A DNA stretch of 34,849 bases from a virus, in the IMG/VR virus record IMGVR_UViG_3300038701_001062, positions 1 to 34,849 of that record. One strand, given 5' to 3'. This document shows, in pieces, positions 3,407 to 17,504 of the stretch. Position 1 is the stretch's first letter, and every line of letters starts with the position of its first letter. The notes beneath the pieces were generated by a model. The model ran no database searches. It saw nothing but the letters and a program-made list of their open reading frames with translations, and was not told the DNA's origin. A program made the translations under genes and the position numbers.

Positions 3407-3470
3407 GGACTTTGTGCCAAAGCGTAAATTGAAATTGATTGTCGTTTGCTGGTTCGCGGTTGTCAGTCAT
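3273..3470 (-). CDS. Small two-helix membrane protein, possible superinfection exclusion factor
   Basis: A 65-residue protein starting at 3470, with AGAGG six bases upstream; the start overlaps the stop of the Mnt-like gene, so the two are translationally coupled. A polar N-terminal 20 residues is followed by two hydrophobic segments (about 27-45 and 47-62) separated by a very short turn. Its last 134 bases run antisense through the 3' end of the ejection gene. In P22 the sieA gene, an inner-membrane superinfection exclusion protein, sits between gene 16 and mnt. Position and membrane character match, but this protein is much shorter than SieA, so the role is inference. Confidence 0.6.
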   Translation of the reverse strand: MTDNREPANDNQFQFTLWHKVLIFGGASIAGWVGIFYWNWLTSFGLWIAVPVLVLSILLISKIPE

Positions 3471-3804
3471 CGGAGGCCTCTGAATCCTCTTTATGGCGCT
3501 TTTGCAATACAAACTCGGCAAGAACGTCAGCAATTCCAGATTTGAAAATGGCGTCTTCAAGTTTGTCCCTTAAAATAGCTTCGTCTTCTTTGTTGCCGCC
3601 CGCTCGTTTAGCAGCTGTATCAGCAGGTACTTGTTTATTAAACACATCAGCCGTAAGAGTTCTCTCTAACCTCTGAATTATCTCTGCATTGAGCGACCTG
3701 CCGTTTTCGGCGGCCAGCTTTTTTAATTCATCACGCATTCCGTCAGGGAAACGAAGCATATACTGGTCTAATTGTTGGCTAGGGAATCTGTCTTTTTTAC
3801 TCAT
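3463..3804 (-). CDS. Mnt-like ribbon-helix-helix repressor
   Basis: A 113-residue protein. Residues ~14-50 carry the Arc/Mnt signature: a beta strand (QYMLRFPDG), then MRDELKKLAAENGRSLN, then AEIIQRLE. The NGRS-N-EI pattern is the hallmark of this family. The C-terminal 60 residues are helical and charged, as in Mnt, whose C-terminus tetramerises. Family members bind operators as dimers of dimers, inserting the N-terminal strand into the major groove. The gene diverges from a shorter Arc-like gene across a region with repeated CCTAT...ATAGG sites, which it most likely binds. It is probably the immI maintenance repressor of this phage. Confidence 0.88.
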   Translation of the reverse strand: MSKKDRFPSQQLDQYMLRFPDGMRDELKKLAAENGRSLNAEIIQRLERTLTADVFNKQVPADTAAKRAGGNKEDEAILRDKLEDAIFKSGIADVLAEFVLQKRHKEDSEASDD

Positions 3805-3805
3805 G

Positions 3806-3880
3806 CCTATTAACTAGCGATATTTTTTGCTTGACGCCACCCTATTAACTTGATAGGTATATGCCTATTAACTTGATAGG
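3806..3880. promoter_or_regulatory. Operator repeats between the Mnt-like and Arc-like genes
   Basis: Two identical 17-bp copies, CCTATTAACTTGATAGG, lie at 3841-3857 and 3864-3880, 23 bp apart. Each has inverted ends CCTAT/ATAGG. A third copy at 3806-3822 matches only over its first 10 bases and lies directly against the start codon of the Mnt-like gene. Known P22 Mnt and Arc operators also carry ATAG/CTAT half-sites, so these are likely binding sites of one or both ribbon-helix-helix repressors. Confidence 0.75.
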
Positions 3881-3886
3881 AGTCAA
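3831..3886. promoter_or_regulatory. Divergent promoters of the immI-like region
   Basis: On the minus strand TTGACT (complement of 3881-3886) and CATATA (complement of 3858-3863) are spaced by exactly the 17-bp operator copy, a good sigma70-type layout for the Mnt-like gene. On the plus strand TTGACG at 3831-3836 is a -35 candidate with weak -10 candidates near 3854-3863 for the Arc-like unit. Operators lie inside both promoters, so the repressors would block polymerase directly. Confidence 0.5.
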
Positions 3887-3888
3887 AA

Positions 3889-4062
3889 ATGCATAATAAA
3901 AACTACCCAAGCCAAACGGCTGATAAGTTCATGCTCCGATTGCCGGATGGCTGGAGGGATTTGATTAAAGAACATGCAGCTCGCAATCGTCGTTCAATGA
4001 ATAGTGAAATTGTTGCGCGGTTAGAGCAAGCTTTTGAGCAGGGGCAACCCACCGATGCTTAA
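3889..4062 (+). CDS. Arc-like ribbon-helix-helix repressor
   Basis: A 57-residue protein, close to the 53 residues of P22 Arc. It shows the strand KFMLRLPDG, helix A and the signature NRRSMNSEI followed by the last helix. It starts nine bases after an operator copy and is the first gene of a rightward unit that continues to the terminator at 5949. In P22, Arc represses its own promoter and limits transcription of the downstream ant gene. Here the genes in that downstream position are the RAMP-like pair, so Arc-like control of that pair is the natural inference. It is shorter than the Mnt-like paralogue and lacks its C-terminal extension. Confidence 0.9.
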   Translation: MHNKNYPSQTADKFMLRLPDGWRDLIKEHAARNRRSMNSEIVARLEQAFEQGQPTDA

Positions 4063-4069
4063 AACGAAA

Positions 4070-4101
4070 AACGCCCCCGAAGCTGTAACTTCAAGGGCGT
4101 T
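4070..4101 (+). other. Hairpin just after the Arc-like gene
   Basis: AACGCCC (4070-4076) pairs with GGGCGTT (4095-4101), with a second inner stem GAAG/CTTC (4079-4082 with 4089-4092). On the + strand no U-run follows, so it is a poor intrinsic terminator rightward. Read leftward it is followed by a T-rich tract. It could act as a partial attenuator or mRNA-stabilising element between arc and the genes that follow. Confidence 0.5.
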
Positions 4102-4138
4102 AAGTGAAAAATTCCAATGCAGAAAAGGAAAATATTCA

Positions 4139-4213
4139 ATGAAAAGTATAATTCAATTTAGCCAACAAGGCAACACTCTACCGAATGTAAAATCAAATGG
4201 GGAGTGCGTATAA
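4139..4213 (+). CDS. 24-codon ORF coupled to the RAMP-like gene
   Basis: ATG at 4139 is preceded by AAAGGAAA nine bases upstream. The ORF ends in TAATG, whose ATG is the start of the 218-residue gene. The 24-residue product starts MKSIIQFSQQGN, reminiscent of the opening residues of BRO-N antirepressors such as phage Ant proteins, but it has no domain. It may be a leader peptide that couples translation, or a remnant of an ant gene replaced by the present pair. Both readings are speculative. Confidence 0.4.
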   Translation: MKSIIQFSQQGNTLPNVKSNGECV

Positions 4214-4869
4214 TGCCTGTAAAGAAAACAAATGCAGCTATCGAACTGCCAAAACTCGATATTCGCCTAATGGAAGTAACAGTTGTTGGTGATAGCCCAT
4301 TAATTGTGCATGCTTGGTCAGAGAAATCAAAGCGTGAGATGCTTGATAAACAGTTGAAAGTCGCGAAAGGCGCAAAGGAAGCCAAAGACCCTGTTGCTGA
4401 TTTCAATGCCTCCTTATATCGGCTCGGTGAAGATTATGGCTTTCCGTCTGTCGGATTTAAATCTGCTGCGGTTACTGCTGGTACTTCGGTTGCTGGGCTT
4501 ACAAAAATTGCCGCCCGTCAAGCCTTTCATATTATCGGGCAAGATGTTGATGTAGATGGCGTTTTTGAAGGAACTAGCGCTCGACATAATCTTGTGAAGA
4601 TAGAGGGTGGCGAGCCAGCCATGCGTGAAGACATGGTTCGGGTCGGCATGGGCACCGCAGATATACGGTATCGGGGTGAATTTCGCGACTGGTGGGCAAA
4701 ACTGCTTGTCCGTTATAATGCGAATGTATTGTCGGAAAGCCAAATCTTGAACTTGTTGAATGTAGCAGGTTTTGCGGTTGGCGTTGGTGAGTGGCGACCT
4801 GAAAAAGACGGTTCCTATGGCATGTTTCATGTTGCAACCGAAGCAGAATTAAAGGGGATTGCCGCATGA
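4213..4869 (+). CDS. Phage protein with RAMP/Cas7-like features
   Basis: A 218-residue protein. ATG at 4213 is chosen because GGGGAG sits 8 bases upstream, whereas the GTG at 4204 overlaps that site. A basic N-terminal tail leads into a hydrophobic strand (residues 20-34, EVTVVGDSPLIVHAW). A loop-helix element GFPSVGFKSAAVTAG at 76-90 resembles the segment of RAMP proteins that precedes the first long helix. A second strand-helix half (152-186) is followed by a glycine-rich loop (AVGVGEWRPEKDGSYGMF, 188-205) like the G-loop of Cas7/RAMP proteins. RAMP proteins bind single-stranded RNA with a regular few-nucleotide footprint. The fold is my inference from pattern, not a database match. It overlaps the next gene by four bases, and a G-rich pentamer array follows that gene. 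Confidence 0.7.
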   Translation: MPVKKTNAAIELPKLDIRLMEVTVVGDSPLIVHAWSEKSKREMLDKQLKVAKGAKEAKDPVADFNASLYRLGEDYGFPSVGFKSAAVTAGTSVAGLTKIAARQAFHIIGQDVDVDGVFEGTSARHNLVKIEGGEPAMREDMVRVGMGTADIRYRGEFRDWWAKLLVRYNANVLSESQILNLLNVAGFAVGVGEWRPEKDGSYGMFHVATEAELKGIAA

Positions 4870-5363
4870 ATATTGTAGGGTATGAATTTATTGAGGGTGC
4901 CAGATTTCAGTCTGGCGCTCACAAGGATGCAAATGAAGTTGGTAAACATCTTGAGCTTCTCAAAGAGCAATTCAAAGGTGAGCTTACACCGAATGATATT
5001 CTTGAGGATGCTAAAAATCATAATTCGCCGCTTCATTCATATTTTGAGTGGGATGATGGAAAGGCAGCAGAACAACATCGGCTTCAACAAGCGAGAGGAT
5101 TAATCAGAACAGTTGTTGCCGTGTACAGATCCGATGAAAAAGAGTCTGTTGTGCGACATAGAGCTTATGTCCACATTAAAGAGGGGGAGGCTTCTCATTA
5201 TCGTGAAACTTCACACGCCATGTCTCAGAAGAAAACAAGGGACAATGTGCTGCAAAGTGCTTGGCGAGAACTTCAATCTTGGAAGAAACGTTACGCAGAT
5301 TTAGAAGAGTTTGCTTCTGTTGCAGAGGCAATTGATCAGATAAAAAAACCAGAAATGGTCTGA
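4866..5363 (+). CDS. Conserved-looking partner of the RAMP-like protein
   Basis: A 165-residue soluble protein starting on an ATGA overlap, so it is made with the preceding protein. Residues 20-60 are helical and end in PLHSYFEWDDGKAAEQ (55-70), a block that looks conserved. A strand RTVVAVYR (81-88) and another (98-105) follow, and the C-terminal 50 residues form a charged helix (SAWRELQSWKKRYADLEEF). No catalytic motif or membrane segment is seen. I do not recognise a named family. Tight coupling suggests it works with the RAMP-like protein, perhaps as the small helical subunit of a complex; that is inference. The pentamer array begins 60 bases after its stop. Confidence 0.75.
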   Translation: MNIVGYEFIEGARFQSGAHKDANEVGKHLELLKEQFKGELTPNDILEDAKNHNSPLHSYFEWDDGKAAEQHRLQQARGLIRTVVAVYRSDEKESVVRHRAYVHIKEGEASHYRETSHAMSQKKTRDNVLQSAWRELQSWKKRYADLEEFASVAEAIDQIKKPEMV

Positions 5364-5422
5364 TTTGTCTAGGGTTATGGCGAGAGTTACCTTACTCAAC
5401 CTCGCAATCTTTTTAGATTATT

Positions 5423-5653
5423 GGCAGGCGGGTTCAGGCTAGTTCAGGTGGGTTATGGTATGTTGAGGCAGGCGGGGTGTGGCGTGGCGAGCTACGGCAT
5501 GGTCTGGCAAGGTCGGGCGTGTTGCGTTTCGGCAGGCAAGGAAAGGCACGTTGTGGTGAGACTTGGTTTGGTAAGGCAGGCGAGGCTAGGTTCGGTAAGT
5601 TTAGGTATGGCATGGTAAGGCGTGTTAAGTTTTGGACACGGATGGCTAGGCTA
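5423..5653 (+). repeat. Array of ~47 degenerate GGYNN pentamers
   Basis: From 5423 to 5653 the + strand can be cut into about 47 consecutive units with consensus GG(C/T)NN. Thirty-seven units are exactly 5 nt, including the continuous runs 5481-5530, 5535-5574 and 5579-5653. The other ten are 4 or 6 nt, and the 4-nt units are usually GGCA or GGCG. The first G is nearly invariant, the second strong, the third mostly C or T; the last two vary. The + strand is strongly G-rich and C-poor. It lies in the same transcription direction as the Arc-like unit, after the 165-residue gene and before a perfect hairpin. Because stops are rare in GGYNN text, long open frames cross it, but they look accidental. 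Confidence 0.85.
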
Positions 5654-5666
5654 ACAACCAAAAAAC

Positions 5667-5701
5667 GGCTTCACTCAGTGTTACGAGCACTGAGTGAAGC
5701 C
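5667..5701 (+). other. Perfect 14-bp hairpin closing the pentamer array
   Basis: GGCTTCACTCAGTG (5667-5680) is followed by a 7-nt loop TTACGAG and the exact reverse complement (5688-5701). No U-run follows, so it is not a standard terminator. A 6-bp alternative pairing exists between TAGGCT at 5647-5652 (end of the array) and AGCCTA at 5698-5703. It begins 13 bases after the last pentamer and could be an RNA processing site, a 3' stabiliser or a protein-binding handle. Confidence 0.75.
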
Positions 5702-5729
5702 TAACCAACAATCGAAAGCGAGCTTCGAT

Positions 5730-5921
5730 ATGGCTAATTTAGCATATAAACAACACGAGTCTGTGTATCAACCTGAAACGAAAGAATATTTAATCACTAG
5801 ATTTTGGGATGAAACACAAAACCAACCAAAAGAACATGCGAGACTAATTGAGCGTGGCAAAGCTATTAAGTGTTTTGAGGGCGAAATGCCCATTGGTTTG
5901 TATACACAATTACCAGTCTAA
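5730..5921 (+). CDS. Small hypothetical protein after the array
   Basis: A 63-residue soluble protein if translation starts at the ATG at 5730; a GTG at 5694 is in frame but lies inside the hairpin arm. No strong Shine-Dalgarno sequence is visible. The sequence is Gln/Glu/Tyr-rich with a central KEYLITRFWDE segment and no recognised domain. It is the last gene before the terminator at 5928-5949, so it belongs to the Arc-controlled unit. Confidence 0.5.
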   Translation: MANLAYKQHESVYQPETKEYLITRFWDETQNQPKEHARLIERGKAIKCFEGEMPIGLYTQLPV

Positions 5922-5927
5922 ACTAAG

Positions 5928-5949
5928 GCCCTGCATTGCGGGGCTTTTT
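5928..5949 (+). terminator. Intrinsic terminator of the Arc-controlled unit
   Basis: GCCCTGC (5928-5934), loop ATT, GCGGGGC (5938-5944), then TTTTT. The compact 7-bp stem (one G-U pair) and U-run make a convincing rightward rho-independent terminator, defining the end of a unit that starts at the Arc-like gene. Confidence 0.85.
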
Positions 5950-5978
5950 CTATTGGAGCGAAGAAATGACAAAGTCAT

Positions 5979-6317
5979 CTAATGACGGGTGGGAACCAAT
6001 GGTAACTCTACATGAGGTCCCGACCGAACGGCATAACGCTTTAATTGCTCGGGTGTCGCAGTCCCAAGAAACAATTCTTTTGGTAATTGATCGCGTAATG
6101 CGTAAAGAGCACCAGGGGTCACAGTATTATCCGATGAGCGGGCCACTGACTTTAAAGGAATTGTATACTGTGGTCTCCGCAAACCTAAAGCTTCATTTAT
6201 CTGCCAGTAAACGACGACATAAAGTTCGCCTTGATGCTCTAAAAGGTCAGTTAATGACAAGGCTCTATCGGTCATAAACTCCACGGCTTTTTCGTGTAAC
6301 TTCACATCATCATCCAT
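5979..6317 (-). CDS. Hypothetical protein
   Basis: A 112-residue protein with ATG at 6317, preceded by GGAGG at an ideal 5-base spacing. The N-terminus is acidic (MDDD), followed by helical segments and a hydrophobic strand LYVVVYW (about 31-37). A C-terminal TPEQLKRYAV helix follows. No family recognised. A rightward ORF (ATG 5966 to 6277) overlaps it with its own GGAG. I prefer the leftward frame because its composition and regular hydrophobic pattern look more protein-like. Confidence 0.6.
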   Translation of the reverse strand: MDDDVKLHEKAVEFMTDRALSLTDLLEHQGELYVVVYWQINEALGLRRPQYTIPLKSVARSSDNTVTPGALYALRDQLPKELFLGTATPEQLKRYAVRSGPHVELPLVPTRH

Positions 6318-6401
6318 ATCAACCTCCAAATTTATAAGGTTAGGACGATTCTACTTAATGGGGCAAATTAGCTTTCTATTGGCAGTAATCAAGACGAAGA
6401 G

Positions 6402-6689
6402 TTATTTATTAGTTCTTGGGTCTGGCATAGACTCTAAACAGAATGCTGTCCCATGGTTTCCCGTAACACCTTTTTGAAAAACGCCAGTAAATTCATTAAC
6501 GCAAAGACCGTGTGCCGCGATAACTGAGGCATAGGCTTCTACCCACTCACATTCTTTGTTGTTGGCGCAATTTGAGGCTTCGAGAAGCCAAATGCTTAAA
6601 AGCCAATCCGTATCTAATTTTACGTCAAGTTCCTTCGCTTGAACAAAGGTTGGGATTAAAAGAAATGCAAAAAGAAGATATTTCAACAT
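6402..6689 (-). CDS. Small secreted protein with four cysteines
   Basis: A 95-residue protein with a clear N-terminal signal peptide: hydrophobic core LLFAFLLIP, with likely cleavage after VQA at residue 18. The mature part has four cysteines (NCANNKEC, GLC and AFC regions) that could form two disulfides in the periplasm. Its start codon overlaps that of the divergent transglycosylase gene by two bases. No family recognised. Placed between immunity and virion genes, it could be a lysogenic conversion or superinfection factor, but there is no direct evidence. Confidence 0.6.
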   Translation of the reverse strand: MLKYLLFAFLLIPTFVQAKELDVKLDTDWLLSIWLLEASNCANNKECEWVEAYASVIAAHGLCVNEFTGVFQKGVTGNHGTAFCLESMPDPRTNK

Positions 6690-8094
6690 GAGTTATACCA
6701 AACAACAAATAGAGCAGATTATCATAGAGGAGGCGCAAAAGGTTGGCGTTGATCCTCAAGCCATGCTGAGTATAGCGCATATCGAAAGCAAGCTAAACCC
6801 TAGCGCTAAAAATCCACGTTCGAGTGCCAGTGGTCTGTTTCAGTTTATAACAAAAACCGGCAATGCATATGGGCTTAAAAATCCGTTTGACCCAAGGCAG
6901 AACGCAAACGCTGGCGCGAGGTTGATGCGAGACAATCAAAGAGCGCTAACAAAAACTCTGGGGCGAAAACCGACAGCAGGCGAGTTGTATCTCGCTCATC
7001 AACAGGGGATTGGCCGAGCTAAACAAGTTCTAGGCAATCCAAACCGCAGGGCACGTGATATTTTGCCAGGGCAGGCTTTTAGTCTCAACATCCCGCGTGG
7101 CAGCGACCCAAATATGAGCGCAAGTGAGTTCAGTAATCTGTGGACAAAGAAGATTGACAATACACCATACAAGGAGTGGGGAGGCAATAGCAGCACCGCA
7201 TTTGCATACAACGAGCAATCACTTCCAAGCCCAAGCAAAGCACCTTTTCCAGATACAAGCAGCGGTCTATTCCAACCAGCCAACCTGTTTGCATCCCCAC
7301 GTGGGCAGGTGCAGAGAGAAAGTCTAGGCCCTGCCAATCCTTCGCCGCTTCCATCCGCACCATCTGGCAATGTCATACGAGCTGGCAGTTTACCTAAAGC
7401 TACGCCACCAACGGAAGCAAACCCAAAAGCAGCATTATTACAAGCAGCTTATCAAAAGCGTAATGTGCCTACACCAGCTCCAAGGCCAGCCGATTTAAGC
7501 AAGTCTTACATTCCAAAGGCTTCGGATTACCAGCACTATCAAATGAACGTGAAGCAGCCTACGTTACCAACCGGCAGCGCAATACCATTACCAGCAGCAA
7601 GACCGGCTAATTTAACGCCTGCGCCGGTTATTGATGGACCAGTAGGTAAACCGCTTGATTTAGTACCAACGCCGCCAACACGCATTCAGCAGGCCAAAAC
7701 AAAGGCAACTAATCACCTTAAAGAGCAATTGCATCCTAAGACGCTCGCGGCACGAGGCGCAGGGGCATTAATCGGTGGTCTACTTCTTGGTCCAATGGGT
7801 GCGAAAGCCGGTCAAATGTTTGGTCCACAAATCGCAAAACAACTGAATAATCGTAACGGCGGTCTATTCGGCATGTTCAACAAACAACAGCCAGACATTT
7901 ACAGATCAGGCAAAACAATGGGTTCAAGTTCCTCTGAATGGGGCAGTGCTCAAAACCAAGGCGCGACTTATACCGCTTCAGATGGTGCGACAATTACCGG
8001 CCGTGGAAACGGCACATATGCAAGAACCAACCCGATTACTGGCGGCACGTCTTATTGGAATGAAGACGGTTCTCGCTCAACTAAAGGATATTAA
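6688..8094 (+). CDS. Virion protein with N-terminal lytic transglycosylase (SLT) domain
   Basis: A 468-residue protein. Residues 1-130 form an SLT-type lysozyme-like domain: helix with the catalytic Glu in SIAHIESKLNP (Glu about 33), then SSASGLFQFI and a later AHQQG motif. This domain cleaves the glycan strands of peptidoglycan. The middle (about 170-330) is Pro/Ala-rich and probably extended. Residues ~350-395 form a Gly/Ala zipper (GAGALIGGLLLG) that could insert in membranes. The C-terminus is Gly/Thr/Ser-rich. Such proteins are carried in the virion and open the cell wall during DNA entry. It is followed directly by the tail fibre gene. Confidence 0.82.
   Translation: MSYTKQQIEQIIIEEAQKVGVDPQAMLSIAHIESKLNPSAKNPRSSASGLFQFITKTGNAYGLKNPFDPRQNANAGARLMRDNQRALTKTLGRKPTAGELYLAHQQGIGRAKQVLGNPNRRARDILPGQAFSLNIPRGSDPNMSASEFSNLWTKKIDNTPYKEWGGNSSTAFAYNEQSLPSPSKAPFPDTSSGLFQPANLFASPRGQVQRESLGPANPSPLPSAPSGNVIRAGSLPKATPPTEANPKAALLQAAYQKRNVPTPAPRPADLSKSYIPKASDYQHYQMNVKQPTLPTGSAIPLPAARPANLTPAPVIDGPVGKPLDLVPTPPTRIQQAKTKATNHLKEQLHPKTLAARGAGALIGGLLLGPMGAKAGQMFGPQIAKQLNNRNGGLFGMFNKQQPDIYRSGKTMGSSSSEWGSAQNQGATYTASDGATITGRGNGTYARTNPITGGTSYWNEDGSRSTKGY

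Positions 8095-17282: not shown

Positions 17283-17504
<222 letters not shown>

Follow-up and report, generated by a model that had tools for sequence, protein, structure and literature searches.

The system closest to the locus considered here is VIPR (Viral Interference Programmable Repeat), which a 2026 preprint (PMC13142463) describes as the combination of a phage RAMP protein, a vap gene and vrRNAs built of alternating GGY and NN units. In that account vrRNAs read double-stranded DNA with one base skipped per dinucleotide and repress transcription; the Vipr family fold comprises an RRM core, a G-loop and a thumb, and a vrRNA has 9-16 GGY/NN units. Seven VIPR types are distinguished there, with the SUSP1 system as type II; each vrRNA of the SUSP1 clade carries a structured, invariable 3' tail, and other array layouts, as well as staggered arrays with overlapping vrRNAs, are mentioned. 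The targets that the main text of the preprint names are satellites and lysogeny regulators.

The window, that is, the whole stretch of 34,849 nucleotides analysed here (IMGVR_UViG_3300038701_001062), almost certainly holds a VIPR locus in the region 4213-5653, as the cargo of a temperate P22-like podophage. The locus is present in its entirety, with vipr, a vap-like gene, a leader hairpin and a GGY/NN pentamer array, and includes the minimal arrangement of vipr and one vap gene with non-coding flanks; the phage, which encodes a portal, terminase, integrase and repressor, looks temperate and P22-like, and no phage record nearly identical to the window was found. Homology, fold, array, exact target matches and mismatches to the phage's own genes were all computed for this locus. 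The system has already been described: its protein, repeat and code have been public since April 2026 (PMC13142463), and the window provides a further example of VIPR, not a novel type of system. What the window adds is a Vipr member in a branch distant from the characterised SUSP1 system, and four natural guides whose putative targets could be decoded from sequence. The sequence-only reading of this DNA had suggested that a RAMP protein standing alone goes with an unusual repeat RNA, which it said would be new; the pairing stands, since an array lies at 5423-5653, but the novelty does not, because the combination is VIPR as given in PMC13142463 and the family profile matches SUSP1 Vipr.

The vipr gene lies on the plus strand at 4213-4869 (ATG at 4213, stop codon ending at 4869), where that reading had placed it, and encodes a single Csm3/Cas7-like RAMP protein of 218 residues belonging to phrog_4652 (E 7e-31), a family of unknown function. 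Gordonia and Mycobacterium phages contain relatives at 38-45% identity, SUSP1-like coliphages are at about 24%, and among uncultivated phages 160 stretches with a relative were confirmed, of which the best 80 were kept. An alignment of 52 homologues has 31 invariant columns, ten of them (G190, G192, E193, W194, R195, E197, K198, D199, G200 and G203) in the terminal glycine-rich loop GVGEWRPEKDGSYGMF, so that the attention drawn to this loop from the letters alone proved well placed. An AlphaFold2 model computed from the homologue alignment (pLDDT 87.5, pTM 0.82) has the loop joining helix 175-188 to strand 205-207, and in this predicted structure it sits where RAMPs have their G-loop. In a Foldseek search, 53 PDB chains fell below E 0.001 (best E 4e-6); the 50 matches listed all belong to CRISPR effector complexes, and Csm3 of Lactococcus, Staphylococcus and Enterococcus stands at the top of them. 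With VIA-align the model reached Z scores up to 10.2 (rmsd 3.8 over 154 residues, residues 15-210 covered). The structural search that had been proposed as a test therefore agrees with the suggested Cas7/RAMP-like layout, and the model displays the RAMP fold, RRM core and G-loop of class 1 CRISPR effectors; the tandem ferredoxin fold that had also been envisaged gives way to the single RRM core and thumb that PMC13142463 reports for the family.

When the profile of 52 relatives was compared with the PDB, the sole distinct sequence matched was 36pp_D, 'SUSP1 Vipr protein' (E 5.9e-12), and hhalign aligned the window Vipr family with SUSP1 Vipr at 97% probability across the G-loop region; by homology, fold and G-loop this is a phage RAMP homologous to SUSP1 Vipr. 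A fold whose nearest solved chains are Csm3/Cas7 might also belong to an orphan CRISPR effector subunit that uses host crRNAs or serves as an anti-CRISPR decoy, but we regard this as very improbable, given that the sequence profile matches Vipr only, that no Cas family is matched, that the gene has its own adjoining GGY/NN array in nearly all relatives and that the exact targets obey the VIPR code. No real family was matched by the Vipr protein in Pfam, NCBIfam or PADLOC, and no Cas family was found among the neighbouring genes scanned. Tandem-repeat and Rfam scans likewise detected no CRISPR array in the window, and no cas gene was seen there, as had been read from the sequence; neither the array nor the further cas genes of a class 1 CRISPR-Cas system were found with vipr here.

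The stop codon of vipr is overlapped by 4 nt by the vap-like accessory gene (4866-5363, plus strand; 165 residues, phrog_15946), and a vap-like ORF adjoins vipr in most relatives. The Vap model is confident (pLDDT 90) and its structural matches are weak and winged-helix-like (e.g., MecI, Z 5.8), no significant solved relative being found; nor did hhalign detect similarity between the window Vap and the ORF after vipr in SUSP1. A DNA-binding role for Vap would agree with vap genes as PMC13142463 describes them. Upstream of vipr, two small genes in divergent orientation (3463-3804 on the minus strand and 3891-4061 on the plus strand) appear by eye to be Arc/ribbon-helix-helix repressor-like, and possibly control the VIPR cargo.

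Between vap and the array is a leader RNA element (plus strand, approximately 5372-5407) with the motif GGTT..GCGA..AACC..TCGC, which eleven loci, the window among them, have in common; in other relatives the leader hairpin is a different one. In the second stem both sides have changed in three of the four pairs, and the covariation score was reached by none of 500 shuffles. The element has the look of an H-type pseudoknot, and a nested hairpin with GTT for GGTT fits about as well. Beyond the array there is a perfect 14-bp inverted repeat (5667-5701) with a T-run on the minus strand, probably the RNA end or a terminator, such that one hairpin precedes the array and one follows it. An Rfam scan of the window and the array returned nothing, and a known ribozyme was not detected.

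The array itself (5423-5653, plus strand) is composed of GGY/NN pentamers in four register blocks of 8, 12, 8 and 10 units, and every block begins at a GGCAGGC junction, where a 4-nt GGCA unit shifts the register by one base. The opening GGCA unit, at the first such junction (5423-5426), leads into guide block 1 (5427-5466; eight pentamers, NN = GG CA TA CA GG AT AT GA), and the further units, starting at 5467, 5531 and 5575, lead into block 2 (5471-5530; twelve pentamers, NN = GG GT GT GA AC AT CT AA CG GT GC TC), block 3 (5535-5574; eight pentamers, NN = AA AA AC GT GA TT TT AA) and block 4 (5579-5628; ten pentamers, NN = GA TA TC AA TA AT AT AA GT AA), past which degenerate repeat runs on to 5653. 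Only GGCA units, and no 3' tail, separate the blocks. The best 12-unit GGY score of the array is 33/36; shuffling the whole window 20 times gave at most 24, and Markov resampling of the GG-rich array, repeated 2000 times, at most 31. Slippage can make GG-rich pentamers, and this, with the 31/36 reached by resampling the array's own dinucleotides, is what speaks for a tract of simple sequence or non-coding spacer that has nothing to do with the protein; we nevertheless assign that explanation a negligible probability, in that NN varies while GGY is held, junctions are spaced by 4+5n with n mostly 8-12, arrays accompany vipr across divergent phages and the decoded strings match codon-aligned gene stretches exactly. 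Elsewhere in the window, a hexamer tandem repeat (GCCAGA, 28.7 copies, 93% matches) lies at 17295-17466 within small minus-strand ORFs.

By a strict score, 76 of 82 relatives carry GGY/NN arrays, which share the strand of vipr without exception; in four of the six relatives that have none (L008, L014, L064 and L078) the locus ends within about 600 bases of the gene. Over 1613 units the base usage is G (95%), G (80%) and pyrimidine (93%), followed by two mixed positions. Junction spacings in relatives cluster at 44, 49, 54, 59 and 64, which is 4+5n for n = 8-12, and 173 of 249 spacings equal 4 modulo 5, many of the others being two blocks summed. One relative, L012, has three separate arrays, before vipr (3696-3858), between vipr and vap (4703-4801) and after vap (5440-5573). 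The window array may represent the 'staggered' layout mentioned in PMC13142463. We can also imagine, at somewhat less than even confidence, a set of tail-less, register-shifted guides of 8-12 pentamers, each closed by GGCA and all served by one leader for the whole RNA, which would act in superinfection exclusion against the orthologous virion genes of sister phages while mismatches spare the phage itself.

Guides were decoded by concatenating their NN pairs with one wildcard base between them, which is the published 1-nt-skip rule. The query for guide 2 comprised units 2-11 (20 fixed bases), with units 1 and 12 withheld. This core has exact matches in seven viral contigs, and all seven also match the withheld units 1 and 12, in codon frame; the sites encode GVVDTILNRVAS with varied wobble bases, although several of these contigs are homologous and they do not amount to seven independent events. 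On the same collection, guide 2 gave no matches with a 2-nt skip and none with the unit order reversed. The target is a tape-measure-type gene, being tape-measure-like by PHROGs in L084, which comes from a phage sharing about 85% identity with Acinetobacter phages. Among genomes guide 2 has two matches, one in a Rickettsiales assembly with 12/12 units and another with 10/12. Guide 4 matches three contigs with 10/10 units, in each case in frame as DYSNYMMNVK, and the later units fit at none of the three, which suggests that this guide is ten units long.

Guide 1 matched 19 contigs, among them IMGVR_UViG_3300020182_000153; on its own, with 16 fixed bases, it also matches unrelated genes, and guide 3 alone is too unspecific for a scan of the collection. 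Guide 3 was sought on IMGVR_UViG_3300020182_000153 after guides 1 and 4 had singled out that contig, and has exactly one exact match there, where about 1e-5 would be expected by chance in 27 kb. Guides 1, 3 and 4 are thus all exact in a single 27-kb contig, and it is on this co-occurrence that the proposed targets of guides 1 and 3 rest. The window guides follow the VIPR rule of a 1-nt skip in which the wobble base is the one passed over. When 143 decoded guides, nearly all from relatives, were compared with 1.35 Mb of locus DNA, the 1-nt skip performed slightly better than 0 or 2, in a test that is not decisive because most targets lie outside those loci and a 3-nt skip trivially re-finds the arrays. 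In the same material, the guide L028:5275 matches L002 at position 2318 with 18/18 bases under the 1-nt skip, and the guides L023:5199 and L006:1591 have two mismatches each to the C-terminal part of vap in L025 and L001; the latter pair suggests, from these sequence matches, guides directed against the vap genes of other VIPR phages, that is, VIPR against VIPR.

The contig IMGVR_UViG_3300020182_000153 belongs to a sister of the window phage: its orthologue of ORF 55-675 (a DNA ejection protein family) shows 97% identity, and there are syntenic orthologues of ORF 925-1962 and of the transglycosylase ORF 6688-8094. The exact matches of guides 1, 3 and 4 fall in these three orthologues respectively, at sites orthologous to the window's own best near-matches for the same guides (76, 1117 and 7525). 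The window reads GQFQNIID, NKTLEYLQ and DYQHYQMNVK at these sites where the sister has GQYQGIID, NKTVEFLK and DYSNYMMNVK, and the window copies differ from the guides at 2, 3 and 3 dinucleotides. That the best window sites fall in the phage's own virion genes might indicate that the guides regulate those genes, in the timing of lysis-lysogeny or of late genes, and not rivals. We think this unlikely, for the own sites mismatch 2-3 of 8-10 units when the relative matches all of them, and guide 2 has no site in the window within three mismatches of its 10-unit core. Interference with other phages is accordingly our preferred reading, the decoded targets lying in competing phages or mobile elements. 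A preference of changes in the phage's own genes for the target sites is weak for guide 1 (P 0.025) and null for guides 3 and 4, so we make no claim of selection on these sites. Vipr was not found in the sister contig, a record that may be a fragment; between the corresponding flanking genes the sister has about 0.5 kb and the window about 3.3 kb including VIPR, and the region 3407-6687 looks like a cargo insertion relative to the sister.

The mechanism that we propose takes ribonucleoprotein assembly, binding of double-stranded DNA, repression and the help of Vap from PMC13142463, from which we infer them for this locus. On every guide block of the array RNA, Vipr subunits would line up, one per GGYNN pentamer, each holding the GGY and presenting the NN dinucleotide. 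The NN pairs would then read a double-stranded DNA target in coding frame, skipping one base between dinucleotides at the wobble position, and the bound Vipr-RNA complex would keep the targeted gene of a competing phage from being transcribed. Of the four guides, three would be directed to virion genes of a sister podophage and the fourth to a conserved tape-measure-type stretch, with the phage's own orthologous genes probably spared by the 2-3 mismatched dinucleotides per site. With VIPR, the phage or a lysogen carrying it would be able to repress the virion genes of related phages that enter or share the cell. From a branch distant from SUSP1, the locus adds independent support for the VIPR code; it also suggests that VIPR can target closely related phages in their virion genes, in addition to the satellites and lysogeny regulators of the preprint's main text. 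The paired window and sister sites also offer natural self and non-self alleles for establishing how many mismatched dinucleotides protect a genome.

Set against known systems, the locus is most like the VIPR of Escherichia phage SUSP1 (KT454805), which also has a RAMP of about 200 residues with a G-loop (GVG.WRP...G.F), the order vipr, next ORF, array, GGY/NN pentamers with 1-nt-skip targets at codon wobble bases, and targets in competing elements. The two differ in that Vipr is only about 24% identical and Vap is without detectable similarity to the neighbouring ORF of SUSP1, the window guides form a single array, linked through GGCA units and lacking individual 3' tails, and a hairpin element precedes the window array. 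The guides here count 8, 12, 8 and 10 units, and the vrRNAs of PMC13142463 9-16. The Csm3/Cas7 backbone of type III and type VII CRISPR effectors shares with Vipr the RRM fold, the glycine-rich loop and an expected polymerisation on guide RNA, whereas the window has no CRISPR array and no Cas10 or other cas genes, and employs a pentamer register in place of a hexamer one, with a gapped NN code. The phrog_4652 family (Gordonia phages ODay and UmaThurman, Mycobacterium phage Quico and others), whose members are annotated solely as hypothetical proteins, represents the same Vipr subfamily at 38-45% identity; in ODay (L082), as in the window, GGY/NN arrays adjoin the gene.
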